The notes under the pieces are model-generated. The model worked only from the letters and a program-made list of their open reading frames with translations. It was not told the DNA's origin and did no database searches. Source: a virus. From it: 34,182 bases of DNA. The stretch covers positions 1 through 34,182 of IMG/VR virus record IMGVR_UViG_3300048032_000055; one strand, given 5' to 3'. Shown piece after piece: positions 2,185-31,539 of the stretch (its first letter is position 1; every line of letters begins with the position of its first letter). A program made the position numbers and the translations under genes.

Positions 2185-4251
2185 ATGAGCAGACATCTTT
2201 ATAACCCTCTTATGCCAAGTGTTCACTTCCTGGATCAGGCTGTTTTTGGTGGCGGTGGAGGTGGTGGTGAACAACAACAACCAGTTACTTATACCTCATC
2301 TAAACCAGAATTAGAAGGTCAAGTTTATGAATCAGAAGCAGCTATGAGAGCTGCTGAAGCGGTAGTAGATAAAGATGCAGCTGCTATTGTGGAGTATGTA
2401 AAATCTTTAAATGCAGCAGTATCTAATGTTACTGGTGATGGATTAGATACTATAGCTAAAACCGGTCTACAAATACAAGCAGCCAACGCTACACCAAAAC
2501 CTGGTGTAACATATGGTGCAGAAAAAATATCTGCAGCTTTGAATTCTAAACTTGCTACACTAAATAAAACTATGCAAGATGCTCAGAGTGGTGGTGCAGC
2601 TGACTTAGCTACAGAGACTCGTGAGTTAGTTTCTCAAGCTATTACTGATCCAGGTTCATTAGCTAAATCACCTGATGTTTCAACTGTAGATACTAACCTT
2701 GCTGGCAGTACTATTGCTACAGGTGAAGGTGCTGTTACAGGTCCAGCAGTTATGTATGCTCCAGCTACTGTAGATTCTACTAGTGTAGCCGAAGGAGCTT
2801 CTCCTGTTACTGCTTCTACTATGACTGCTACTACAGCCGCAGATGCTGTTAAGGCGGCTACAGACGCTTCCAAAGCTGCTACAGGAACTGTATCTGCTGA
2901 GGGTGTAGTACAAGCTGCTACACAAGCTCCTACAACCACTGACGTATCAACTATAACTGCGGCTCAAGGTACAGCTACAGTAATGGATAATCCAGTACAA
3001 AGAGAGATACAACAAGGTGAAATAATTACTGGGGTAGCTGATGCTACTAAAGCTTCTGCATTTAGTGAACAGATACAAGCTGCTACTGCAACACCATCAG
3101 AAAAAGCTACTGTAAAAGGACAGCTTGATAATCTTATGCAAGACTTTGAGGGTGGAGCTACACCTGTATGGGCAGCTGGAGCAATGCGAAATGCTAATGC
3201 ACAGATGGCGGCGAGAGGTTTAGGTGCTTCGTCTATGGCAGGTCAAGCTATAGTACAAGCGGCAATGGAATCAGCATTACCTATAGCTATGCAGGATGCA
3301 CAAACTGTCGCAGGGTTTGAAATGGCTAACCTTTCGAATAGACAACAACGTGCTATGCTTGCCGCACAACAACGTGCTACATTTATAGGACAAGAATTTG
3401 ATCAAGCTTTTCAAGCTCGTGTTGCTAACTCAGCTAAGATATCTGATATAGCTAACATGAACTTTACAGCTGAACAATCTATTGCGCTTGAGAACTCACG
3501 TAATGCTAATACGATTAATTTAAACAATCTAAGTAATAATCAAGCTATGGTGATGGCTCAAGCAGCATCTGTTGCTAATTTAGAACAACAAAATTTATCT
3601 AATCAACAGCAAGCTGCAGTACAAAATGCTAAATCTTTCTTAGATATGGACATGACTAACTTGAGTAATAATCAACAGATGGAAATGTTTAAGTCTCAAC
3701 AAATAGTACAGTCATTATTTACTGATCAGGCGGCTGATAATGCAGCTAAACAATTTAATGCTTCATCTGAAACACAAACTAAACAGTTTATGGCTAACTT
3801 ACAACAACAAGTACAACAGTTTAATGCTACACAACTTAATACAACAGAACAGTTTAATTCTGGAGTTACTAATGCTGCCCAACAGTTTAATGCTCAGGTA
3901 GAAAATCAACGTAGACAATTTAATGCACAGAATGCTTTAGTTATAGCTCAAGCTAATGCACAATGGAGACAGAACGTAGCTACATATAACTCACAAGCAC
4001 AAAACCAAGCTAATATGCAACAAGCTCAAGCAGCTAATGCATTTACTCAAGGTACTATTGATCAGATATGGCAACGTGAACGTGACTTAATGGACTATGC
4101 TTACAAAGGTTCAGAAGCTTCTAAACAACGTGCCTTAGATATTATACTCGCAGATAAAAAATACGATGAATATGCAAAAGCTAGAGCAGATCAAGAGAAG
4201 ACTGATAAGTGGGCTGTGTTTACAAAATTCGGTTTAGATTTACTAAGCTAG
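2185..4251 (+). CDS. Ala/Gln/Asn-rich virion protein (internal or ejection protein)
   Basis: This 688-aa protein is almost free of Cys and very rich in Ala, Gln, Asn and Thr. It starts with a short head and a seven-Gly run (about residues 22-28). A conserved-looking core near residues 325-365 reads PVWAAGAMRNANAQMAARGLGASSMAG. Downstream come repeated NLSNxQQ units (about 380-500) and then QFNA units spaced roughly 12-16 residues apart (about 521-583). Such repeats predict a long helical rod. It starts 3 nt after the acyltransferase stop and lies before the lysozyme and 1210-aa proteins, the usual place for T7 gp14/15/16-like internal virion proteins. It is a plausible ejection protein, and it might be the acyltransferase substrate; both are inferences. 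Confidence 0.8.
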   Translation: MSRHLYNPLMPSVHFLDQAVFGGGGGGGEQQQPVTYTSSKPELEGQVYESEAAMRAAEAVVDKDAAAIVEYVKSLNAAVSNVTGDGLDTIAKTGLQIQAANATPKPGVTYGAEKISAALNSKLATLNKTMQDAQSGGAADLATETRELVSQAITDPGSLAKSPDVSTVDTNLAGSTIATGEGAVTGPAVMYAPATVDSTSVAEGASPVTASTMTATTAADAVKAATDASKAATGTVSAEGVVQAATQAPTTTDVSTITAAQGTATVMDNPVQREIQQGEIITGVADATKASAFSEQIQAATATPSEKATVKGQLDNLMQDFEGGATPVWAAGAMRNANAQMAARGLGASSMAGQAIVQAAMESALPIAMQDAQTVAGFEMANLSNRQQRAMLAAQQRATFIGQEFDQAFQARVANSAKISDIANMNFTAEQSIALENSRNANTINLNNLSNNQAMVMAQAASVANLEQQNLSNQQQAAVQNAKSFLDMDMTNLSNNQQMEMFKSQQIVQSLFTDQAADNAAKQFNASSETQTKQFMANLQQQVQQFNATQLNTTEQFNSGVTNAAQQFNAQVENQRRQFNAQNALVIAQANAQWRQNVATYNSQAQNQANMQQAQAANAFTQGTIDQIWQRERDLMDYAYKGSEASKQRALDIILADKKYDEYAKARADQEKTDKWAVFTKFGLDLLS

Positions 4252-5152: not shown

Positions 5153-5692
5153 ATGTTTAGTGCACCTATTCCTGGTCAGTCATTGACCTCAGAACCAAAG
5201 AACTCTCCTTGGGAAAATCCACCTCAGATGAATAAACCTGAAGAAGCTGTACTCTGGCATTTAAAAAAACTTGATAAACCTAAATCAGTTAAGTCTGTTG
5301 TAGGTTTACTAGGTTTAGGTTTAGATTTAGTTACATTAACTGAGGGTTTACTTCGTGGTGCTGTTGCTGAAGGTAGGCATAGTATTGATGTAAGTTTACT
5401 TATAGCTCCTGTTATACATGAATATATAAAAGGTATTGCTGATGCATCAGGTGTTGAATATAATGAAGGTCTTGATGATGGTGAAGAAGAGTTAGACTTA
5501 AACATAGTAGCTTTAGATATGCGTGAAAGAGAAGCAGAAAAAGTAATACAAGAGTATAAAGATAAAGGTACTATAGACATGTCTGAGTTATCTACTCCAG
5601 ATGAAACAGTAGAAGAAGAGCCTATGCAAGTTGATGAAGAACCTATTGAAGAACCTATGCCAATGGGTCTTATGTCACGGAGGAATGTATAA
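5153..5692 (+). CDS. Conserved phage structural accessory protein
   Basis: This 179-aa protein opens with APIPGQSLTSEPKNSPWENPP, continues with a PEEAVLWHLKKL helix and a segment ending HSIDVSLLIAPVIHEYIKGIAD, and ends in a strongly acidic Glu/Pro tail. I recognise this N-terminal pattern from marine and cyanobacterial phages, where it sits among structural genes; no function is established to my knowledge. It starts 15 nt after the lysozyme gene and its stop overlaps the next ATG (taATG). It is probably a small virion or assembly protein. Confidence 0.7.
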   Translation: MFSAPIPGQSLTSEPKNSPWENPPQMNKPEEAVLWHLKKLDKPKSVKSVVGLLGLGLDLVTLTEGLLRGAVAEGRHSIDVSLLIAPVIHEYIKGIADASGVEYNEGLDDGEEELDLNIVALDMREREAEKVIQEYKDKGTIDMSELSTPDETVEEEPMQVDEEPIEEPMPMGLMSRRNV

Positions 5693-21142: not shown

Positions 21143-21342
21143 ATTGATTTCCTTTCTTTAACCCAAAGTCTTTTAAGACTCTTGTGTCTACCACCTTTAG
21201 CACCAGTTGACTGCCTGTTTCTTTGAGCTGTCCACTGATCACCTTCCTTATAGGTTCTCATGTTGAATACCTCACGCATCCTTTCATTCTCAGCTTTACA
21301 CACTGACATGTGGGCTAGCCTTAGTCTATCTTGAACATCCAT
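21130..21342 (-). CDS. Small basic hypothetical protein
   Basis: This 70-aa protein has a helical N-terminal half (DVQDRLRLAHMSVCKAENERMREVF) and a basic C-terminal half (GAKGGRHKSLKRLWVKERK). Its ATG shares a base with the integrase stop and has AAGGAG upstream; it overlaps thyX by 13 nt. It might bind nucleic acid. An excisionase-like role is conceivable from its place after the integrase, but no HTH is clear. Confidence 0.55.
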   Translation of the reverse strand: MDVQDRLRLAHMSVCKAENERMREVFNMRTYKEGDQWTAQRNRQSTGAKGGRHKSLKRLWVKERKSICNQ

Positions 21343-22430
21343 TATTCTTTACTCCTTCTACTTAGTGCGGACTTTGCCGCTTTTAAATTGTGTTTAACAT
21401 ATGGGTTAAGACTTGCCACATTCTTATGACCTGTAACAGACATGATTGCAAGGTGGTCTATCTCACTGTCAATCATCTGGTTGATGGCTGTCTTTCTAAG
21501 ATCACCCACACGTAGATCAGAAGGTAGTCCTGACAGCTCCTTAATCTGTCTGACTAGTACACCTGCAGAGGCATGGTCAAACGCCCTGTATGCCCCATCT
21601 GAAGGCCTCTGAAAGGGTACTACATATTCTTGGAAGTCCCAGTCACCTTTCTGTTGTAGTAACATAGAAGTCAAAGGTTCTTCTAATGGTAGCTCAACTG
21701 TAGCACCACGTTTACTTTGACGTATCTTTACCATGTTGATATCAAAATGTATGTTGTCCCACTTGAGAGTGTAGATATCAATAGGTCTTTGCGCCCACTC
21801 ATAAGCCATCAGAACACAAAGGCCTATGTTTCTAAACTTAAAATCTGAGAAGGCTACATCACAGAACTTCTCAACCTGTTCATTATTCCATATAGTTGAA
21901 CGTGTCTCATGGGTTCTCTTATTAACATGAGTTACAGGGTTGTTGTTAACAATGCCTAATGAACGACAGTAATTCATAATCATAGATAGAGACCTACTGT
22001 ACTCATTAGCTGTGTTAGTACTTACATTTTCTTCCCAAGTATCATAGGCTTCGGTACATACTGGAGTTGTAACTCTATCAATTCTAAAACTACCAAACTC
22101 TTTACCATATATTTCTGTACGACAGATACACTTTAGATTGTGAGTATAGTTATCTTGGGTATTGGGCGACAAAGAATTAAAGTGTTTGGTTTTAAAGTAG
22201 TAACCTACTATTTGATTTAGGTTTGATAACCTACCTATATCACCTGCTACTAACTCACCTTTACGAAAGGCATCTATCTTATCTAAGAGCTTTGGTATCT
22301 CTACCCTTGCAGTTCTACCATCTCTAAATGTCTGAGACTTAACTATACCTGCTGACACTACGTCTTGAGGTGGTCTAAATACCCAAGACGTACTGCCGTT
22401 CTTACGACTAGTCTTAGTTGTATACTTCAT
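21342..22430 (-). CDS. Tyrosine recombinase / phage integrase
   Basis: The 362-aa protein has an N-terminal arm-binding-like part (1-80), a SAM-like core-binding domain (about 85-165), and a catalytic domain with Arg215 (EWAQRPID), Lys240, Arg312 (RVGDLRK; Gly309 replaces the usual His of HxxR), His335 (VTGHKN) and Tyr344 (NPYVKH). It would join phage and host DNA at att sites. The gene starts directly after a repeat array that reaches into its ribosome-binding region. No tRNA-derived attP core is recognised in the window. Confidence 0.9.
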   Translation of the reverse strand: MKYTTKTSRKNGSTSWVFRPPQDVVSAGIVKSQTFRDGRTARVEIPKLLDKIDAFRKGELVAGDIGRLSNLNQIVGYYFKTKHFNSLSPNTQDNYTHNLKCICRTEIYGKEFGSFRIDRVTTPVCTEAYDTWEENVSTNTANEYSRSLSMIMNYCRSLGIVNNNPVTHVNKRTHETRSTIWNNEQVEKFCDVAFSDFKFRNIGLCVLMAYEWAQRPIDIYTLKWDNIHFDINMVKIRQSKRGATVELPLEEPLTSMLLQQKGDWDFQEYVVPFQRPSDGAYRAFDHASAGVLVRQIKELSGLPSDLRVGDLRKTAINQMIDSEIDHLAIMSVTGHKNVASLNPYVKHNLKAAKSALSRRSKE

Positions 22431-22440
22431 ATCTTTCCTT

Positions 22441-22514
22441 ACTTTAAGTATTATTATTAATTAATAATAGATATTAATAGTAAACTTAAAGTAACCTTAA
22501 GTATACTTTAAGTA
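22441..22514 (-). repeat. Repeat array A (TACTTWAAGTA) upstream of the integrase
   Basis: Copies of the dyad-symmetric ACTTWAAGTA word lie at 22441-22450, 22484-22493, 22494-22503 (one mismatch) and 22505-22514. The last three are spaced 10 and 11 bp apart, one helical turn. Read on the minus strand, order and flanking bases match array B at 28613-28708. The copy nearest the gene ends next to the AAGGAA ribosome-binding site, so a bound protein would block integrase expression. Confidence 0.85.
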
Positions 22515-22551
22515 CTATAAAATACATATTAATTAAAATTAATCAACCCTC

Positions 22552-22568
22552 TGTGACAACGTGTCACA
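22552..22568. repeat. Inverted repeat TGTGAC/GTCACA at the peptidase stop
   Basis: A 6-bp perfect inverted repeat with a 5-nt centre overlaps the stop codon of the peptidase gene (22564). No T run follows on the minus strand, so it is a poor terminator. It may be a protein-binding site between the peptidase and integrase genes. Confidence 0.5.
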
Positions 22569-23514
22569 TATAACGAGTAGCTACATAGTCATTGACGAAG
22601 TAGTCAGGTGAGATGTTACACTCTCTCATGATCTCTTCAGCAGTATAACCATAGGTAGCAAGCATATCAGCAATCCTATCAGGGTAATCTAATACTAGGT
22701 TGACGAGTTCTTCTGTAGCATCAGGGTTGTGAGAATAATAGTAATCATCATTGAGTGCATACTTAGTATAGATACACTCTTGTACTGTAGGGTCACGATC
22801 AATGACAATCTTTGTCCAGTCAGCTTGTAACAAACTACTGAGTAACAACTCTGCATAAGACATATCTTGTGTCTCTTTAGCTGTATGTTGATTGTAGTAA
22901 CCTACACTGATGTTAGTACACTCAGGTACTACATGAGCATACTCATTGCTGTCTGTGTAAGAACCACCATCATCGGCTACTAGCTGTGGCATACTGAGTG
23001 CAGTAGCAAAGGACTGTGCAAATTTGTTAGATGCAGTACGCATACCCATCTGGTGTGTGATAACAGACTTAGTGCCATACCTGTCGAAAGATATAACAGC
23101 ATCAGTATGATCTAACCAAGGTGGATTGTCATAGACTAGTGCCTTACTACCCTGACAACCAATCTCTTCAGCTGCATGGACTACGTATGTACCCTCTACA
23201 CCTGCATCAATCATCTTGAGTATAAGCCATATACCTGTGGTACAGTCAGCACCTAGACAGCTTGATACCTTGGGGTCAGCTACAGATATTATGTTGTTAG
23301 ATACAACAACCTTCTGCATACCCTCAGCCTTGTGTACTGTGTCGTGGTGTGCCGTAAAGCATAGACGTGGCTTAACACCAACTTGGCATATGTAATTACC
23401 ATATGGGTCAGGCTTACCAAACACAGGTTCGAGATACTCAAGACAGAATTCTTTCTGTGTCTTAGCACCTTCAGGTCGCATGTACTGCAACATATCTACT
23501 AGATTATTTTTCAT
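22564..23514 (-). CDS. M20/M28-like zinc metallopeptidase
   Basis: The protein has 316 aa from the ATG at 23514, chosen because AAGGAA lies 8 nt upstream; an ATG at 23532 would add six residues. Zinc-peptidase landmarks are TAHHDTV (His56, Asp58), LGADCTTG (Asp90), HAAEEIG (Glu116, Glu117), ISFDRYG (Asp144) and GYYNQHTAKE (His210), the full co-catalytic ligand set of di-zinc aminopeptidases and carboxypeptidases. There is no signal peptide, so it should act in the cytoplasm. A Tyr/Asp-rich C-terminal extension (about 240-316) follows. Possible jobs are peptide recycling or trimming of phage or host proteins; the substrate is unknown. Confidence 0.8.
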   Translation of the reverse strand: MKNNLVDMLQYMRPEGAKTQKEFCLEYLEPVFGKPDPYGNYICQVGVKPRLCFTAHHDTVHKAEGMQKVVVSNNIISVADPKVSSCLGADCTTGIWLILKMIDAGVEGTYVVHAAEEIGCQGSKALVYDNPPWLDHTDAVISFDRYGTKSVITHQMGMRTASNKFAQSFATALSMPQLVADDGGSYTDSNEYAHVVPECTNISVGYYNQHTAKETQDMSYAELLLSSLLQADWTKIVIDRDPTVQECIYTKYALNDDYYYSHNPDATEELVNLVLDYPDRIADMLATYGYTAEEIMRECNISPDYFVNDYVATRYM

Positions 23515-25189
23515 TATTGTTTTCCTTTTCATAAGACTTCATGTATATACCGAAGTCATTCCTTACATATTTATATTCATGACTATTATAGTTGTGACCA
23601 TCTATCTCATCTTTAGCTACAGTCTCATCTTCAATAGTACTAACCATCTGATCATTGTGGTACACTTCTCCATCCCAATCAGAACAAAAGTATTGTGCTT
23701 CAAACAATGGGGGAGATACAAATGAATCCTCAGACTCTACATATATTACCTCCTCAGAATCCCAGTACTCACCCTCACGTTCACACCATGTATACCCATC
23801 ACAACCTTCTGCAACATCATGGTATCTTCTACTACCATCGCTAGTAGTATACCATACGCATATGTGCTGGTCATTGTGATAGTATTCATCAGACCAATCA
23901 CAGTAGAAGTGTTCATCTTGAAAGCAACAGTCACAGTATACATTACCTGTGTACTCAGAGTAACGTGACTCATCTTCATGCACATTCTCTTCACAGTTAT
24001 AACAACGATTAATATCGTCACTGTATATGCCTTGGTAACCATTGCCATCAAGCTCACCACCACAACCTATAACTAGGTATTCTTTGGTATTAGCGTTACC
24101 TTCACTGTCTTTAGTACCATCAGGTAATCTACAAGCATCCAATGCTCTAGGCTCTAGGTCTAGGTATGGACCGATGTAAGCCTGAGTATCATAGTCTTTG
24201 ATAGCTGATAGTTTAGCACCTGTCCAATCAGAGTCATAGACATCACAGGCATCTATACTATCCAGATGATCTTTTAGCATATCTAATGCTTGCTGACAAG
24301 CCCCATAAACACAAGATGGTTGTGGTATACCTGAGCCATGCTTCATGTAGACAACCACACGGCCACCTATGAAACCCCTATCATCTTCAACCCATATGAT
24401 ATTGAAATCACCAGAACCATACACCTCGGTTGGATGTATAGGTAGGTTCATCGGACCATCACCATCATCAAAGGTATACCGCATACAACTAGACGCTAGT
24501 GACTTGTAAGTACCTGTAGTATTAATGTTCTGTGTACCCACCATCTTACCTGTATACACCTTACGAAAGTCATCAGGCTTACTGGACGTTTTGACTGTGT
24601 ACTCTCTGTGTGCAAAGGCATCAAGAAATTCAGTGACTAGCCTATCAACAGTCTTGTTGTCTAGCTCTGGTGCTATAGTAGACATAGCTTTTCCAGGCTT
24701 CATAGGCGTATGTAGATCAGCTAAATACTTATCACTGTTCTGATAGATACTGATATAACCATGCCTTCTCTTGGAACGCATAGGTGCAAACAAAGATAAC
24801 CTATGAGGTAAAGCGTTTATCTCTAAGGTAGAGTTATGTACGTACCCTATGTTCTCTGACAACCATTGATGCAAAGCACCATCAGGTTGCCTTGCAGGTA
24901 ATGTCCAGTCACCCCATGCTTGTATGACAGGGTCACTGTGTTCACTATCCAAGATACGCTTGACCACAAACCCATTTGACTGTGGGTCGTGTCCAAAACT
25001 AATTCTGAATTTGACATCACCAACCTCAATGAAAGCACCTGTAGGTGTATTGAACTCGATGATCATGTCGTCATCATCAACACTGAAGGGTTTGTAATCA
25101 GGTATCAACGCCAAGTGTTGCACATTATCAGGTATAAACTGAGAGTTATTAGCTAACTCCCTATTCACAATTCTAATTTCATAGCTCAT
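23504..25189 (-). CDS. Cys/Trp/Tyr-rich protein with zinc-ribbon-like motifs
   Basis: A 561-aa protein of unknown family. Residues 1-230 form a beta-rich domain. The middle (about 228-300) has SSCMRYTFDD, HPTEVYGSGDFNIIWVEDD and GGRVVVY, then a helix with PSCVYGACQQALDML. The C-terminal third is Cys-rich: Cys396-x2-Cys399 and Cys419-x2-Cys422 fit a zinc ribbon or treble clef. Two related units, FYCDWSDEYYHND (428-440) and FCSDWDGEVYHND (501-513), look like an internal duplication. It is highly acidic. It overlaps the peptidase start by 11 nt, so the two may act together. It may bind nucleic acid or a host protein. Confidence 0.7.
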   Translation of the reverse strand: MSYEIRIVNRELANNSQFIPDNVQHLALIPDYKPFSVDDDDMIIEFNTPTGAFIEVGDVKFRISFGHDPQSNGFVVKRILDSEHSDPVIQAWGDWTLPARQPDGALHQWLSENIGYVHNSTLEINALPHRLSLFAPMRSKRRHGYISIYQNSDKYLADLHTPMKPGKAMSTIAPELDNKTVDRLVTEFLDAFAHREYTVKTSSKPDDFRKVYTGKMVGTQNINTTGTYKSLASSCMRYTFDDGDGPMNLPIHPTEVYGSGDFNIIWVEDDRGFIGGRVVVYMKHGSGIPQPSCVYGACQQALDMLKDHLDSIDACDVYDSDWTGAKLSAIKDYDTQAYIGPYLDLEPRALDACRLPDGTKDSEGNANTKEYLVIGCGGELDGNGYQGIYSDDINRCYNCEENVHEDESRYSEYTGNVYCDCCFQDEHFYCDWSDEYYHNDQHICVWYTTSDGSRRYHDVAEGCDGYTWCEREGEYWDSEEVIYVESEDSFVSPPLFEAQYFCSDWDGEVYHNDQMVSTIEDETVAKDEIDGHNYNSHEYKYVRNDFGIYMKSYEKENNNEK

Positions 25190-25219
25190 AGCTATTCCTT
25201 TCTTTTACTAATAGTTTAA

Positions 25220-25510
25220 TTATTCGTGTTCTCCACCTTTACCACGTAAAGTATAAAAGATTTGAGGCTTACGTTTAGCCGCTTCAAATACTGATACAGT
25301 TATAAAGATACCACACAATAAGAGTGCATGGAATAAAATATTCACACCTAGATACATCCAAGTACCTGTCATTGCAGTGAACACAATACACCACATCCAT
25401 GCGAGTATCTGCATAACTAAATGCCGTACCCTTAAATCTTTAATATTAGACAATGGATTTCTTTCATGATCCATTATCAAATTCCACCAATCTATAATAA
25501 AACTTGTCAT
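25220..25510 (-). CDS. Two-helix membrane protein
   Basis: The protein has 96 aa from the ATG at 25510, which has AAAGGAA upstream; the longer in-frame start would run through the neighbouring gene. Two hydrophobic helices (about 31-50 and 52-75) contain WMWCIVFTAMTGTWMYLGVNILF and LLLCGIFITVSVF. A cytoplasmic-looking N-terminus (DHERNPLSNIKDLRVRH) and a basic C-terminus flank them. It could be a holin-like or host-membrane-modifying protein; there is no direct evidence. Confidence 0.65.
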   Translation of the reverse strand: MTSFIIDWWNLIMDHERNPLSNIKDLRVRHLVMQILAWMWCIVFTAMTGTWMYLGVNILFHALLLCGIFITVSVFEAAKRKPQIFYTLRGKGGEHE

Positions 25511-25527
25511 ATTATTCCTTTCATTTA

Positions 25528-25770
25528 TTAATTTAACCACCACGACATGAACGATATAAACATACTGAACACGCCTAAAGACACAACACCACCAAACAAA
25601 AACCATAGTGTTGCTAACTTAAATTGAGACCATGAGGACTCCTCTATCCATTCATGATCTTCTTCTATACCATAGGCTACATGAATGAAGCCATAGGTAT
25701 CCGACACCACACGCCAACCATCAGTTGGACACGTATCTAACCATTGATTGAAGCTATCCCTATTCATCAT
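25528..25770 (-). CDS. Tail-anchored small membrane protein
   Basis: This 80-aa protein has a soluble N-terminal part (SFNQWLDTCPTDGWRVVSDTYGFIHVAYGIEED) and one long C-terminal hydrophobic segment (about 50-78). Two adjacent ATGs overlap the previous stop; AAGGG sits 7 nt upstream of the first. The N-terminal domain looks folded and acidic. No family is recognised. Confidence 0.6.
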   Translation of the reverse strand: MMNRDSFNQWLDTCPTDGWRVVSDTYGFIHVAYGIEEDHEWIEESSWSQFKLATLWFLFGGVVSLGVFSMFISFMSWWLN

Positions 25771-26132
25771 ACGAACCCTTCTTTTTTAAGCCACACAAAT
25801 TCATTTATATTTATAGGTATGGTTTCTGTTTCACCGATAGGAAGTTCAGGTCTAGGTGAATTACAAATAACATTCCACCTACCTATTAACATCAACTCCT
25901 CCTTAGTATAGGTTGGTTTCTTGGTAGGTTCACACACCATTTCAATAACCTTAGAAGTTACATCATAATCAGGCGTACCATAGCCACCATCTATTCGCAT
26001 ATCTACATCACCTAACTCATCATAATCATGAGCTAGTTGTGCCACACATGCTTCTAGATCAAGACCTTCTATATGAAACTTTTCCAGTTCAAACTCGGTC
26101 TCAATCCAACCACTTAAAATATAATTCATCAT
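25767..26132 (-). CDS. Hypothetical acidic protein
   Basis: This 121-aa protein begins MMNYILSGWIETEFELEKFHIEGLDLEACVAQLAHDYDELGDVDMRIDG, followed by strands and KKPTYTKEELMLIGRW. No catalytic motif is seen. It starts 1 nt after the upstream stop and overlaps the next start, fitting a co-translated accessory operon. Confidence 0.6.
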   Translation of the reverse strand: MMNYILSGWIETEFELEKFHIEGLDLEACVAQLAHDYDELGDVDMRIDGGYGTPDYDVTSKVIEMVCEPTKKPTYTKEELMLIGRWNVICNSPRPELPIGETETIPININEFVWLKKEGFV

Positions 26133-26133
26133 A

Positions 26134-26424
26134 TCAATACACCTTTAACTTTTCATTTGGGTACTCATCACAAGCCTTTTTCAAATCCAATATAAAATTA
26201 AACAAAACATCATAGCTACCCCAACCATTAGAAGGGTTTAGCTTCTCAAGCTTCTCCTGCTTAAACACCATGCTTTGAATACTTACTTTAAGACAATGTG
26301 AAATTTGATAACCTGTCATACCATACATATCACGCAATGGTATTACAAAAACTTCACGTATCATAGGTGAAAGGTTATAGGTAACATTACCTTGCCATTC
26401 ACCTAGCAAAACGTCTGTACTCAT
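26134..26424 (-). CDS. Hypothetical phage protein (NVTYNLSPM/GWGSYD type)
   Basis: This 96-aa protein has NVTYNLSPMIREVF near residue 13 and LNPSNGWGSYDVLFNFILDLKKACDEYP at the end. The NVTYN and NPxNGWG-x-Y blocks recur in small proteins from many phages, to my memory without a known role. The ATG overlaps the preceding stop (ATGA). It is probably an early host-takeover or accessory protein. Confidence 0.65.
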   Translation of the reverse strand: MSTDVLLGEWQGNVTYNLSPMIREVFVIPLRDMYGMTGYQISHCLKVSIQSMVFKQEKLEKLNPSNGWGSYDVLFNFILDLKKACDEYPNEKLKVY

Positions 26425-26546
26425 AATAATTTACCTCCTACCATCACGCCCACAATAAACGTGATTATTAAAAGAAAAACAATCGCAATTGCTCCATTCA
26501 TTTTTGCTTTATTTTCTGCGTCAATACGCCTTTGTCTACTACTCAT
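26421..26546 (-). CDS. 41-aa single-pass membrane peptide
   Basis: The ATG at 26546 is chosen because AAAGGG lies 7 nt upstream; upstream in-frame starts have no such site. The peptide MSSRQRRIDAENKAKMNGAI has a basic amphipathic head, then one membrane segment IAIVFLLIITFIVGVMVGG (about 19-39). It overlaps the next gene by 4 nt. The role is unknown; small phage membrane peptides of this type can alter host envelope functions. Confidence 0.55.
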   Translation of the reverse strand: MSSRQRRIDAENKAKMNGAIAIVFLLIITFIVGVMVGGKLL

Positions 26547-26575
26547 ATTCATTCCCTTTCTATAGTTGAACATGG

Positions 26576-26604
26576 AAAAACACACCATGTAAAAACATGA
26601 TGTG
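26576..26604 (-). terminator. Terminator after the first leftward gene
   Basis: On the minus strand a 10-bp stem with one G-T pair (arms 26595-26604 and 26581-26590) and a TTTT loop is followed by TTTTT at 26580-26576. It lies between the 179-aa gene and the small membrane genes and probably limits transcription into the rest of the operon. Confidence 0.7.
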
Positions 26605-26625
26605 CTTATTCGATATTCATTTATA

Positions 26626-27165
26626 TTAAGCGGCCTTTTTATTAGGTAATTCAACAACTACATTATTTTCTTGATGCTTAATTGTAGCCTTAATTATTTT
26701 TTGCATCTCTTTCAATTCGTCTATTGAACGCTTTGAACAAGTTTCAATAAAAGACTTTACGTTTAAAGGGGCAGATTTTTTACCTGTTTTAGTTGTAAAA
26801 GCTTCTTTCCATTTACTACCACGCATTGAAATTTTTGCTTCGACCAAATCTTCCATGATAGCAATAGCTTTCTCATTAGCTTTCAGTCCCTTAATAATAA
26901 TTTTAGCATGAGTTTTACCAGTCTTTTTATTCTTTTCGGTTTTAAACTTTGCACCTTCATAAACTATATTGATCATGGATTTTATTGCACGTTCTGCAAG
27001 TGTATCATCACGCTTTTTAGCTTGGTTAATTAGACCTATTAAGATAGTTGTATCTCTTTTTTCTAATACTGTTTGAAATGCTTCAAGTGTATATTTACCC
27101 ATATTAGCACCATTACCAAGTGAACGACCAAAATTTGCTTCAATTTTTGTTACTGTATTTGTCAT
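26626..27165 (-). CDS. Hypothetical basic protein, first gene of the leftward operon
   Basis: This 179-aa Lys-rich helical protein contains a KRDTTILIGLINQAKKRDDTL segment, a very basic stretch (TEKNKKTGKTHAKIIIKGLK, about 76-95) and a C-terminal helix SIDELKEMQKIIKATIKHQ. No domain is recognised. As the promoter-proximal gene with its own terminator, it is expected to be made early and in quantity. A nucleic-acid-binding or host-takeover role fits its charge, but this is a guess. Confidence 0.6.
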   Translation of the reverse strand: MTNTVTKIEANFGRSLGNGANMGKYTLEAFQTVLEKRDTTILIGLINQAKKRDDTLAERAIKSMINIVYEGAKFKTEKNKKTGKTHAKIIIKGLKANEKAIAIMEDLVEAKISMRGSKWKEAFTTKTGKKSAPLNVKSFIETCSKRSIDELKEMQKIIKATIKHQENNVVVELPNKKAA

Positions 27166-27225
27166 AATATTTCTTTCCTTTTTATATTATTTCATTTTGC
27201 TTAATGTTATCATTAAACATCAATA

Positions 27226-27250
27226 ACAGCGGCGTGATTAAGACCGCTGT
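27226..27250. repeat. Inverted repeat ACAGCGG/CCGCTGT in the leftward leader
   Basis: Perfect 7-bp arms (27226-27232 and 27244-27250) with an 11-nt loop, GC-rich in an AT-rich setting. A second small palindrome TTAATG/CATTAA lies at 27201-27216. Both would be in the 5' leader of the leftward transcript and could be an operator or an RNA structure. Confidence 0.5.
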
Positions 27251-27315
27251 CATAACTGATTAATAATTTTTAAATAATAATAAACACCATCTAACAAAAC
27301 CAATTAGCAAAACCG

Positions 27316-27344
27316 ATTGAAATTTTATTAATAATTGCTGTCAA
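27316..27344 (-). promoter_or_regulatory. Possible leftward early promoter
   Basis: On the minus strand TTGACA (27344-27339) is followed after 17 nt by TTCAAT (27321-27316). The -35 is perfect and the -10 weak (four of six). It would start the leftward operon about 145 nt before the first ATG at 27165. Confidence 0.35.
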
Positions 27345-27800
27345 TATCTTCAATTTTGTTCACTCAAGAAAGACTGTCGCCTAATACCTTCACCAATTAT
27401 AGATGTTTAGTTCTTTTCCCGTAGGAATATCCCTTTTACTTTTACTAACATTAAAGACCCCTATTATATATAGGTACGTTTAATGCTTTCTCTCTATTCG
27501 GATCATACCAAGCCTTTTAATTTGTGAGATTAAAAAAACCGAGTAGCCTAGGCAATTAATATTTTATAAGATACTTTCCTAGTTAAGTTTCTATATTCAT
27601 TACTGAATATTTTTACTTTAAGTATCTGCAACCTTCTAACAATTAAAACCCTAAAATCTTAATATAAAACCTGTTAGTTAGGTAAATGTAAAATAGCACA
27701 TAGTTAAAAAAAACTACTAAAATCTAAAATATAATCTCACTCCGAAAATATTTATAATCAATTTCTGAATTTGAATATAATGATATAATTGAATAAAACA

Positions 27801-27845
27801 ACAAGAAATTTATGCATTTTGTAATATTTTTATAAAATTTCTTGT
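27801..27845. repeat. 11-bp perfect inverted repeat
   Basis: ACAAGAAATTT (27801-27811) and AAATTTCTTGT (27835-27845) are exact inverted copies separated by 23 nt of AT-rich DNA. It could form a cruciform or act as a bipartite protein-binding site. Confidence 0.6.
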
Positions 27846-27920
27846 AAGTTATTGAAAACAAAGGAAAAGAAATTTAATATTATTTTATTATAATATCATT
27901 ATGAACTGGAAATAAAATTT

Positions 27921-28024
27921 AGTTTAATGTTGAACTACTTTATGGTTTAGCATTAAACTATTATTATTATTTACTAGGGGATATGGTTTAATATTGAACT
28001 AAATAGATGGTATAGTGTTGTACT
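27921..28024. promoter_or_regulatory. Cluster of four 16-bp operator-like palindromes
   Basis: AGTTTAATGTTGAACT (27921-27936), GGTTTAGCATTAAACT (27944-27959), GGTTTAATATTGAACT (27985-28000) and GGTATAGTGTTGTACT (28009-28024) share one imperfect dyad. Start-to-start steps are 23, 41 and 24 bp. A promoter begins 7 nt after the last copy. The pattern is that of a repressor or activator binding cluster. Confidence 0.6.
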
Positions 28025-28030
28025 TCTTAA

Positions 28031-28059
28031 TTGCTGTTGAGAGACTGTTATAGTATAAC
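28031..28059 (+). promoter_or_regulatory. Rightward sigma-70-like promoter next to the operators
   Basis: TTGCTG (28031-28036), 17-nt spacer, TATAAC (28054-28059). The -10 is five of six. It reads towards 28840 through a long leader. Confidence 0.5.
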
Positions 28060-28187
28060 ATAACATAATTCATAATATATCTCATTTAAATAATTCTTAA
28101 TTGTATAAATAATATAATAAAATCAATAGGTTAGCATAGAGATAAGCATAATAATTTACTTGATAAGAACGTAAGGAGAACAAAAGA

Positions 28188-28248
28188 GGGGGGACATGGG
28201 GCAGACGGGGGGTGTACGTACGTATATATACACAATGACAGCGGGGGG
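28188..28248 (+). repeat. G-run cluster in AT-rich DNA
   Basis: Runs of six, four, six and six G lie at 28188-28193, 28198-28201, 28207-28212 and 28243-28248. Between the last two is the palindrome TACGTACGTA (28215-28224). Four G runs on one strand could fold as a G-quadruplex with one long loop. Confidence 0.6.
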
Positions 28249-28582
28249 TATTTTTAAAGCTGTTAACTACATTATGTAAATACGTTATATTATAACATTA
28301 TCCTAAAACTAGAGGTATACCTTATCCTTTTATTATTATATTGATATTGGTGATAATGATAGACCATTATATTGAATATTATGTTAATACATTATACAGC
28401 CCCATAGAGAGCCTTTAAGTACTCCCCGGGTATATCTTAACCTGACGACAGTATGTAACTCCTCAGTGAGGCTTATTAAGCTTCTCAGAGACTAATAGTA
28501 GTTAGTCCGCCGCCGTTAAGAATTCTTTGAGTAACTTTAAGTATCTACGACAAGAAATATCTAAGCTGCTACAATTTGTCTA

Positions 28583-28610
28583 TTGACTTAGTTTTATAAT
28601 GTGATATAAT
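28583..28610 (+). promoter_or_regulatory. Strong rightward promoter
   Basis: TTGACT (28583-28588), 16-nt spacer, TATAAT (28605-28610). This is the best promoter in the window and reads into the lysis/packaging operon. Repeat array B begins 3 bp after the -10, over the start point, so a protein bound there would block initiation. Confidence 0.7.
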
Positions 28611-28612
28611 AT

Positions 28613-28708
28613 ACTTAAAGTATACTTTAGGTTACTTAAAGTAACTATAAGTATTATCATCTACTAATAATAATAATATAAGTAAATACTTAAAGTATAC
28701 TTAAAGTA
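28613..28708 (+). repeat. Repeat array B (TACTTWAAGTA) at the rightward promoter
   Basis: Copies of ACTTWAAGTA or close variants lie at 28613-28622, 28624-28633 (variant), 28634-28643, 28644-28653 (variant), 28688-28697 and 28699-28708. Steps are 11, 10, 10 and 11 bp within groups. Order and spacer bases match array A upstream of the integrase in the same direction relative to the downstream gene. Lone copies occur at 27614-27624, 28412-28421 (one mismatch) and 28534-28543. Confidence 0.85.
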
Positions 28709-28715
28709 CCCCTCT

Positions 28716-28761
28716 TACTAGTAACGATAAGCAATACTTACTCTATACTAGTAACGATAAG
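28716..28761 (+). repeat. 16-bp direct repeat TACTAGTAACGATAAG
   Basis: Exact copies at 28716-28731 and 28746-28761, 30 bp apart start to start, close to three helical turns. They lie in the leader between array B and the first rightward gene. Confidence 0.75.
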
Positions 28762-28839
28762 GATTCTTAGTAGATGGAGATAATTCTGTCGTCCCAACTT
28801 TAGTTGTTGACACGGGGTTTCTAAAAGGTATAACTAGTC

Positions 28840-29094
28840 ATGTCCAAACCTAAAATGTATTCCAGTGAGAGGGTACTTGAAGAGTTCTATAAGGCACTTG
28901 CTGATCAGAACGAAGGTAAACTCCGTAGGGTTCATATACCTAGATCAGACGTATTCTACATTAGAGAAGCATACTATCAACATTCAGGTACTTGGGAAAC
29001 CTTAGACAGAATAGAAAGATGTATGTACCTCGAAGGTAAGCTATTAGCTAGAGACGTACTAGATCCTAAGCGTAAGAGAGACTGGGAACAATGA
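28840..29094 (+). CDS. Small hypothetical protein, first rightward gene
   Basis: This 84-aa protein contains MYSSERVLEEFYKAL, IPRSDVFYIREAYYQHSG and LDRIERCMYLEGKLLARDVLDPKRKRDWEQ. It is basic and helical. I recall similar short proteins at this place in marine phages but no function. AAAGG lies about 11 nt upstream of the ATG. It overlaps the EF-hand membrane gene by 4 nt. Confidence 0.65.
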   Translation: MSKPKMYSSERVLEEFYKALADQNEGKLRRVHIPRSDVFYIREAYYQHSGTWETLDRIERCMYLEGKLLARDVLDPKRKRDWEQ

Positions 29095-29420
29095 CAAGTT
29101 TTGAAGAAGTAGATGTAGACAACAGTGGATCTATTGATAAGACTGAATGGGATGCATTAGCATTAGAAGATCGACGTAGACGATTAGATGATGAAGATGC
29201 ACAACGTGATGCTCAAAGAAGAATGGCATGGTTTTGTTTAGCAGGAATGCTAGCATATCCATTCCTTGTCCTATTGTGTTCTATGATAGGTGCAGACAAA
29301 GCAGCTGATATCATAGGTTCTATGGCTTCTATTTATTTTCTATCAGTTGCTGGTATAGTTGGTGTATTCTTTGGAGTCACTAACATGAGCAAGAAAGAAG
29401 TGAAAGGTAACAACGGATGA
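29091..29420 (+). CDS. EF-hand protein with two membrane helices, holin candidate
   Basis: This 109-aa protein starts with a complete EF-hand loop: Asp8, Asp10, Ser12, Ser14, Asp16 and Glu19 at positions 1, 3, 5, 7, 9 and 12, with Gly13 and Ile15 in the usual places. A charged helix (20-44) and two membrane segments (about 45-65 and 72-95) follow. Its place just before a holin-like gene and the endolysin suggests a lysis role. Calcium might influence its membrane activity. A canonical EF-hand fused to such a small membrane protein is unusual. It overlaps the previous gene (ATGA). Confidence 0.7.
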   Translation: MTSFEEVDVDNSGSIDKTEWDALALEDRRRRLDDEDAQRDAQRRMAWFCLAGMLAYPFLVLLCSMIGADKAADIIGSMASIYFLSVAGIVGVFFGVTNMSKKEVKGNNG

Positions 29421-30896: not shown

Positions 30897-31087
30897 TGGC
30901 TAAACCTAAATCAAAATCTAGAGTAAACGAAGCAGGTAATTATACAAAACCTGCATTACGTAAGAGATTATTTAGTAAAATTAAAGCAGGTACTAAGGGT
31001 GGTAAAGCAGGTCAGTGGTCTGCACGTAAAGCACAAATGCTAGCCCTACAGTATAAAAAAGCTGGTGGAGGTTATAGAAAGACATGA
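30896..31087 (+). CDS. Basic conserved protein (DUF5872-like)
   Basis: The protein has 63 aa from the taATG start at 30896; an ATG two codons earlier exists but lies before the stop overlap used by neighbouring genes. It contains YTKPALRKRLFSKIKAG and GGKAGQWSARKAQMLALQYKKAGGGY, the blocks of DUF5872 as I remember it. It is strongly positively charged and probably binds nucleic acid. Function unknown. Confidence 0.7.
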   Translation: MAKPKSKSRVNEAGNYTKPALRKRLFSKIKAGTKGGKAGQWSARKAQMLALQYKKAGGGYRKT

Positions 31088-31539
31088 AAGCTTCTCAGAA
31101 GTCACTTAAGAAGTGGACTAAAGAAAAGTGGGGAACTAAAAGCGGTAAGCCTAGTGCTAAAACAGGAGAACGTTATCTCCCTAAAAAAGCAAGAGAAGCT
31201 TTAACCCCAGCAGAATATGCAGCTACTAGTGCAGCTAAACGTAAAGGCACAGCAGCAGGAAAACAATTTGTAAAACAACCAAAGAAAATTGCAGAAAAAA
31301 CTAAAAAATTTAGAGCTTCGAAAGGCGGACTTACTATGAAAAAAGGTTATCACAAAATGCCTGATGGCACAATGATGAAGGATTCAGACATGAAGAAAAA
31401 GTCTGGGTATATGCACGGTGGTATGGCTAAACCTAATAAAGGTATGAAAGCCTTAAAGAAAGCTGCACCTAAAGTAGCTAAGAAAATGGGTTATAACAAA
31501 GGTGGCATGGCTAAATGCGGTGCATCTTATAAAGGATAA
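31084..31539 (+). CDS. Lys-rich protein with KGGM-type tail
   Basis: The 151-aa protein has an N-terminal domain KSLKKWTKEKWGTKSGKPSA, GERYLPKKAREALTPAEYAAT, and a basic segment to about residue 75. Then comes a Gly/Lys/Met-rich tail with repeated GYxKM, GYMHGGM and YNKGGM units. Similar proteins occur in marine phages among packaging or head genes without a known role. Charge suggests nucleic-acid or capsid-interior binding. ATGA overlap with the preceding gene. Confidence 0.65.
   Translation: MKASQKSLKKWTKEKWGTKSGKPSAKTGERYLPKKAREALTPAEYAATSAAKRKGTAAGKQFVKQPKKIAEKTKKFRASKGGLTMKKGYHKMPDGTMMKDSDMKKKSGYMHGGMAKPNKGMKALKKAAPKVAKKMGYNKGGMAKCGASYKG

Follow-up and report, generated by a model that had tools for sequence, protein, structure and literature searches.

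The virus record IMGVR_UViG_3300048032_000055, which we analyzed whole (34,182 bases; hereafter the window), carries two arrays of the 11-base-pair (bp) dyad word TACTTWAAGTA, array A in front of a tyrosine integrase gene and array B at the predicted promoter of the late genes. On balance, we favor the reading that one phage protein, acting on both arrays, represses the replication and late promoters together. This reading of joint control over the replication and late modules, which takes the place of the integrase/lysis switch proposed in the initial annotation of this DNA, is partly supported by the sequence comparisons described below. The arrays themselves are real, operator-like and conserved, and their clustering is not due to chance.

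Two arrays of one dyad word lie at predicted promoters

The window contains genes running leftward from 27165 to 10380 and, across a 1.7-kilobase (kb) gap with few genes, late genes that begin at 28840 and run rightward. Exact copies of TACTTWAAGTA start at 22440, 22504, 27614, 28612, 28633, 28687 and 28698, and looser copies start at 22483 (1 mismatch) and at 22493, 28623, 28643 and 28674 (2 mismatches each). Both the two arrays of dyad words and the 10–11 bp steps between word starts inside each array had been described in the initial annotation and were borne out, with the true coordinates one base below those it gave. The words at 27614 and 28533, absent from that annotation, sit in an 18-nucleotide (nt) repeat that is 89% alike.

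To express density against chance, the 133-bp gap before the integrase holds 2 exact words compared with a shuffle mean of 0.0035, and the divergent gap (27166–28839) holds 5 compared with 0.013, the maximum being 1 in 2000 shuffles for either gap. Counted at up to 2 mismatches across the whole window, there are 34 words against 29.9 expected, which is no excess over chance; for this reason, we relied on clustered words that match exactly or nearly so. The helical phasing that had been claimed is clear inside the arrays (steps of 10, 11 and 12) but weak across the spacer, with a mean resultant of 0.28 at the best period for pairs more than 30 bp apart, these pairs being non-independent.

Predicted promoters were sought by a scan of two stretches, 27000–29000 and 22300–22800. 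P_B tops the 15 promoter-like sites in 27000–29000, in agreement with the earlier statement that the best promoter starts within array B. The first array B word starts 1 nt past the P_B -10 and spans about -6 to +5. The corresponding leftward promoter, P_A, was recognized from its alignment with P_B and with relatives (Table 1), and its -10 stands 4 nt ahead of the first array A word. It is missing from the scan list because its match falls under the 9-of-12 cut; boxes resembling it (TTGAC or TTGAT, followed in several cases by TATTTT) recur in relatives. The 133-bp gap that holds array A is the biggest in the 17-kb leftward module (runner-up 67 bp, in a hand-picked gene set), and is therefore a natural site for an internal promoter of the integrase and replication genes.

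A and B had also been taken for diverged copies of one control element, and formal alignment supports this. Read toward their genes, the two elements align with a score of 98, compared with 58 in the opposite orientation and a mean of 34.5 (maximum 57 of 500) for shuffled B. When the words were kept and only the other bases of B were shuffled, the mean rose to 76.7. Because only 1 of 500 of these word-keeping shuffles reached 98, the likeness of A and B extends past the words into the promoter.

Table 1. Coordinates of the arrays, predicted promoters and neighboring features in the window.
Feature	Position	Strand	Basis or remark
Tyrosine integrase, first gene behind P_A	21342..22430	-	precedes thyX and primase
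Array A distal word, exact TACTTWAAGTA	22440..22450	-	9 bp before integrase start codon
Element A AT-rich spacer, 32 nt	22451..22482	-	sequence reading
Array A promoter-proximal run, three words	22483..22514	-	22483 with 1 mismatch, 22493 with 2, 22504 exact
P_A (predicted): -35 TTGATT 22541-22546, N16, -10 TATTTT 22519-22524	22519..22546	-	aligned with P_B and relatives
Dyad TGTGACA-N3-TGTCACA	22552..22568		just upstream of P_A -35; by eye, similar in several relatives
Isolated exact word	27614..27624		divergent region; also present in close relatives L008, L011, L013, L024
1-mismatch word	28533..28543		upstream of P_B, inside 18-nt repeat
P_B (predicted): TTGACT-N16-TATAAT, extended -10, 11/12	28583..28610	+	promoter scan
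Array B promoter-proximal run, four words	28612..28653	+	28612, 28633 exact; 28623, 28643 with 2 mismatches each
Element B AT-rich spacer	28654..28686	+	contains doubtful 2-mismatch word at 28674
Array B distal pair, exact words 11 bp apart	28687..28708	+	sequence reading
P2 promoter-like site: TTGACA-N16-TATAAC	28807..28834	+	ends 5 nt before first late ATG; recurs in relatives
First late gene, 84 amino acids, VHIPRSDVFYVRE core	28840..29094	+	in 19/19 genomes or parts compared

Word changes at one locus are matched at the other

The array group comprises 12 records, of which G005 has the 10-bp word and the other 11 have the 11-bp word. Exact words are confined to the two loci in these records, the exception being one divergent-gap word in the window and in G012. 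In G008 and G009, only the late locus has words. Some lineages have moved to another word at both loci alike. L072 and L081 carry TACTTAAGTA at both and have no 11-bp word there. CRP-13 has TACTNNNAGTA four times at 3429–3523 and twice at 54198–54338, and CRP-9 has it three times at 5188–5259 and four times at 54973–55200, with no other copies in either genome. Additionally, A is nearer to its own genome's B than to the B of other genomes (9 representatives; permutation p 0.0016, relatedness retained). This parallel change of word at the two loci supports a single trans-acting factor for both. Thus, of the initial proposal that one protein governs the integrase and the lysis/packaging operon, the single factor is supported, but control of the integrase as such is not.

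Further lineages with this late module have other dyads past the late promoter: CACTTAAGTG in HMO-2011, AACATTAATGTT in CRP-2, TAGTTNAACTA or ACACTTAAGTGT in metagenomic relatives and, in CRP-1, CACTTNAAGTG as one exact and two near copies. Of 59 window-like late regions, 41 had perfect dyads (arms of at least 5) above shuffles (p≤0.05), compared with 12 of 59 for the control stretch; the same test on a second lineage set gave 23 of 64 regions and 6 of 50 controls. CRP-1, CRP-2, CRP-9 and CRP-13 have different words though they are recorded on one host strain.

Array A does not depend on an integrase or on one replication module

By sequence, the window represents part of a marine podovirus genome in which an HMO-2011-type late module is joined to an integrase gene and to replication genes like those of CRP-6. 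Its TerL is 83% identical to that of CRP-13, 79% to CRP-9 and 62.5% to HMO-2011, and its late gene families are common with the HMO-2011-type module. The closest named relative of its polymerase is that of roseophage CRP-6 (53.7% identity), and the CXXCXGXG repeats of the DnaJ-like domain in the HMO-2011-type polymerase were not found in it. Because the polymerase is without these repeats and nearest to CRP-6, we did not class the window as an HMO-2011-type phage. It fits group II as defined in PMC8528129, with a CRP-6-like polymerase, an HMO-2011-type late module and an integrase before thyX and primase; the passages on that group describe CRP-6-type replication joined to an HMO-2011-type late module, and 10 of its 12 published cases have an integrase. 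The same source reports the HMO-2011-type late module, combined with several replication modules, from 318 viral genomes of the ocean (PMC8528129). HMO-2011-type phages are termed dominant and broadly distributed in a passage of PMC9038755, and for one of them, CRP-3, integration at a tRNA-Met gene is described as demonstrated (PMC6918029).

No integrase match was found in CRP-9 or CRP-13, and both keep both arrays. Array A there precedes small genes and thyX, the replication module is described as Cobavirus-type (PMC8528129) and the polymerases are about 22% identical to that of the window. CRP-6, with its related polymerase, thyX and primase, has no 84-amino-acid (aa) late protein, and its 44.9 kb hold no word even when 1 mismatch is allowed. 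Since CRP-9 and CRP-13 keep the arrays and CRP-6 has none, the system goes with the HMO-2011-type late module. Two further loci, L244 and L245, likewise have an array of 1-mismatch words and no integrase in the next 2.5 kb (the sequence of L246 ends too early). With arrays kept in these integrase-less cases, control of the integrase as such was not upheld, and the controlled unit would be the module behind the array: the integrase if present, thyX, primase-helicase and polymerase. Array A thus appears to subject any resident replication module to the word used at the late promoter.

Conservation across relatives

We scanned viral contigs with the 84-aa first late protein and kept 80 loci of 423 relatives. 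On the late side, 71 of the 76 loci with enough flank have at least 2 words at no more than 1 mismatch within 330 bp. The loci without two such words are L037, L065, L072, L075 and L081; L072 and L081 miss the 11-bp late words because both use the 10-bp word. The first word stands -1 to +4 nt past a promoter -10 in 37 of 62 distinct late regions.

An integrase and the late gene are both present at 24 loci, which represent 21 distinct records (three occur twice): 20 from IMG/VR plus CRP-2. An array precedes the integrase in 18 of the 20 distinct IMG/VR records, and array A was not found in L077, L079 and CRP-2. When loci were instead located by the peptidase gene that lies upstream of array A, 22 of 26 had the array (8 of the 26 records are also in other scans, and L015, a 27th locus, was omitted though array-bearing). 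No integrase was seen at the four loci without the array, L247–L250 (only 1.2 kb of L248 was searchable), and the two of them whose sequence was inspected have another gene in that place.

Several observations weigh against joint repression from the two arrays. L077 and L079 carry an integrase and a late array with no array A. Among 25 further loci with 4–8 kb upstream of the late gene, a second late-word cluster occurs only in L072 and L081, and L151, L152, L186 and L202 showed no pattern that was tried over this range. In ten close relatives, word columns (0.84) are conserved about as well as spacer columns (0.81), and therefore the case from conservation rests on distant relatives. P_A is a weak match, with 8 of 12 consensus bases. 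Lastly, the position of the arrays suits a repressor and is no proof of one, and all of the binder searches described below gave no binder.

A model for joint repression

From the sites, their placement at predicted promoters, their duplication, conservation and concerted change, and their independence of integrase and replication module, all of which are read from sequence, we infer binding by a protein, repression over activation, a phage origin of the protein and a mode of release. Each element would consist of a sigma-70-type promoter followed by a two-part operator, with two to several 11-bp dyad words at 10–12 bp steps from about -6, then an AT-rich spacer of about 30–45 bp and one to three further words. 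One sequence-specific protein, probably phage-encoded and linked to the late module, would bind as one dimer per word. Dimers side by side on one DNA face would cover the start site and so repress both promoters, P_A for the replication and nucleotide module (here with the integrase first) and P_B for the late, lysis and packaging operon. Repression is suggested by this geometry, since the words lie over the start site at one helical turn. Both modules would be switched on once the protein is released or diluted.

More tentatively, phages with the HMO-2011-type late module, integrase-bearing or not, might share a fast-diversifying repressor-operator system, placed on their late promoters and in some lineages on their replication promoters too, in which an unrecognized repressor sets mutual immunity or timing. 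We regard this wider proposal as doubtful; it draws on the phages of one host, whose words have come to differ in the manner of heteroimmune phages. If true, repressor specificity would set mutual immunity or timing in abundant ocean phages, integrase-less members included.

Alternative explanations for the arrays

The main published rival is that the host regulator CtrA binds the arrays. In other alphaproteobacterial phages, CtrA is described as exerting 'lytic deferment' through TTAA-N7-TTAA sites, which in one of them crowd a 1.3-kb divergent gap (PMC9437464). The 11-bp steps yield this very motif, which is present in 32 of 62 distinct window-like late regions (58 pairs compared with 6.1 expected) and, in the window, as two pairs in A (22486 and 22497) and one in B (28690). 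However, the N6 (45 pairs) and N8 (27) spacings are in excess too, and TTAA-N7-TTAA occurs in 0 of 58 regions of the second lineage set and 0 times in the CRP-9 and CRP-13 arrays. Bases outside TTAA are also kept: in 143 imperfect neighbor words chosen at 6–9 matches of 10, A2, C3, G9 and T10 are retained at 0.82–0.89, compared with 0.63–0.90 for the TTAA bases. This point is only moderate, because T1 and A11 are poorly kept (0.53 and 0.59). Phages of one host use different words, which favors a phage-encoded binder over host CtrA. Thus, CtrA may bind some arrays and is unlikely as their general binder, and we consider it an unlikely explanation as a whole.

We judged it improbable that the arrays are replication origin iterons, with two origins per genome and transcription-primed opening. 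The words do flank an AT-rich spacer beside a promoter, as such an origin would have. Against this, none of 8 genomes has a GC-skew switch at A, and the switch at B in 6 of 8 coincides with the change in gene direction and is confounded with it (the other two are cut by record ends). No initiator gene was recognized, L077 and L079 are without A, and another conserved element of the divergent gap is an equally good origin candidate. The iteron alternative named in the initial annotation is accordingly unsupported.

Even less probable is control of elongation or translation by an RNA leader hairpin formed from the self-complementary words. The B leader folds at -24.7 kcal/mol (z -3.3) and the A leader at -15.6 kcal/mol (z -2.0), as any row of palindromes would fold. 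Spacer hairpins in relatives are near shuffle level (mean z of -0.38 over 35 B spacers and of -0.71 over 10 A spacers), and the 10–12 bp steps and the placement at the -10 indicate action on DNA.

We give almost no credence to the remaining suggestions of the initial annotation, that the words are integrase arm-type sites or that recombination at them inverts the 6-kb segment between the arrays: array A does adjoin the integrase gene and A and B are mutually inverted, but arm sites are ruled out by CRP-9 and CRP-13, which keep both arrays without a detectable integrase (L244 and L245 likewise within 2.5 kb), and none of 21 distinct records is inverted, with the integrase/late-gene arrangement the same in 21/21 (CRP-2 allowing for the record start).

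Candidate binding proteins

The 71-aa helix-turn-helix (HTH) protein that had been suggested as a binder was not found in 10 of the 12 array-group records, several of which are fragments and may have lost it for that reason. This HTH_39 protein is found in 7 of 22 records overall, and 2 of these are among the 12 array-group records (G005 included in the 12). The 179-aa family is present in 8 of 12 array-group records and 8 of 19 genomes or parts.

By position, the leading candidate for an autoregulator is the 84-aa first late protein, which is encoded behind P_B and absent where the words are absent. Its presence in 19 of 19 genomes or parts and its lack in CRP-6 fit a link to the late module. 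Its sequence hardly varies with the word, the window and L037 sharing the central helix, and this speaks against it as the binder. The AlphaFold2 model is an all-helical, four-helix protein with a mean predicted local distance difference test score (pLDDT) of 77.5 and a predicted template modeling score (pTM) of 0.56. For the family of 57 members, no PHROG match fell below E 0.02 and no PDB sequence below E 0.8; Foldseek with the model gave none below E 5 and VIA a best Z of 2.4, and we claim no fold. A scan of bacterial genomes with this protein gave 6 loci, all titled metagenome-assembled genome (MAG), and therefore provides no prophage evidence. The other family found in 19 of 19 is a basic late protein encoded at 31084–31539 (phrog_14910).

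We also examined 77 early proteins, one per family from eight genomes, and no common DNA-binding family appeared among the families listed (25 of 41 for Pfam, 25 of 32 for PHROG). There were three single matches: the window protein to HTH_39, CRP-13 gp06 to phrog_9665 ('transcriptional regulator') and a G001 protein to phrog_624 ('DNA binding protein'). The family of this last protein occurs in 8 of 19 genomes or parts, the window not being one of them. Among the Pfam families listed (25 of 41) for 10 window proteins and the 77 early proteins, with the late genes partly scanned, there is no CI/Cro family.

Comparison with known operator systems

Phage lambda carries OL and OR on opposed promoters kilobases apart, with several dyad sites each and one repressor. 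The arrangement here is similar in having several dyad sites on each of two opposed promoters kilobases apart, the same multi-site operator being present on both. The lambda operators are 17-bp sites at about 20–25 bp steps on early promoters, whereas the words here are 11 bp at 10–12 bp steps on predicted replication and late promoters. Ribbon-helix-helix proteins (Arc, MetJ, ParR/parC) bind tandem sites about one helical turn apart with a dimer per site. The arrays resemble these operators in working only, and no ribbon-helix-helix gene was recognized in this study.

Like the window, the CtrA-controlled (low positional entropy) phages as presented in PMC9437464 have clustered dyads in a divergent-gene gap at phage promoters. 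In contrast, the words here extend to TACT/AGTA with steps of 10–12, and the second set and the CRP-9 and CRP-13 arrays are without TTAA-N7-TTAA. The operators and stoperators of Cluster A mycobacteriophages, as described in passages of PMC6550527, share with the arrays many copies of a short site and a lineage-specific consensus, and each repressor there prefers its cognate site. Those sites are about 13 bp, genome-wide, mostly in one orientation and bound by a known repressor, whereas here they are dyads in two tight arrays (PMC6550527). No stoperator-type dispersal was seen, since exact words stand at two loci, plus the one gap word in two records.

We found no paper recognizably describing these arrays in the open-access literature, in which the word itself occurs in 4 unrelated papers. 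The passages of PMC9038755 and PMC8528129 that bear on these phages cover genes rather than regulatory sites, and the term 'promoter' has a count of 0 in each paper. The pair of operator arrays is apparently undescribed so far in this abundant marine phage group, as a variant of the familiar phage multi-operator theme. The arrays offer a first handle on the timing of replication and lysis in phages with the HMO-2011-type late module, and they suggest a route by which the late module already in place takes control of a newly swapped replication module. Additionally, the concerted word classes provide a way to find the binder, and phages of one host with different words permit a comparison of cross-immunity.

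Further elements near the arrays

The dyad just upstream of the P_A -35 (Table 1) is possibly the site of a second regulator, perhaps an activator. A tRNA-Arg (TCT) lies directly behind array A in L055 (2416–2492) and L083 (2517–2593) and slightly farther behind it in CRP-13 (L096:3978–4054), which makes 3 of 14 loci scanned; similar sequence is seen by eye in L243 and L239.

On the late side, P2 is missing from the scan list because the scan requires a T ending the -10. Its position suggests a leaderless late mRNA, and a word overlaps the P2 -10 in some relatives. The second late gene (29091–29420) has weak EF-hand matches under the Pfam cut-off.

The divergent gap contains a second conserved element at 28197–28265 (GGGTGTACG...TATAC...GACAGCGGGGGTATTTTT...TGTTAAC), seen by eye also in CRP-13 and CRP-9 and partly in CRP-1, CRP-2 and HMO-2011, whatever the word class. 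We consider it a candidate origin or early promoter. Degenerate dyads like TAGTTTAAYRTTAAACTA occupy 27920–28025 and may represent a second, putative operator family in the gap; their core GTTTAAYRTTAAAC is exact in G001, G002, G012, CRP-13 and CRP-9.

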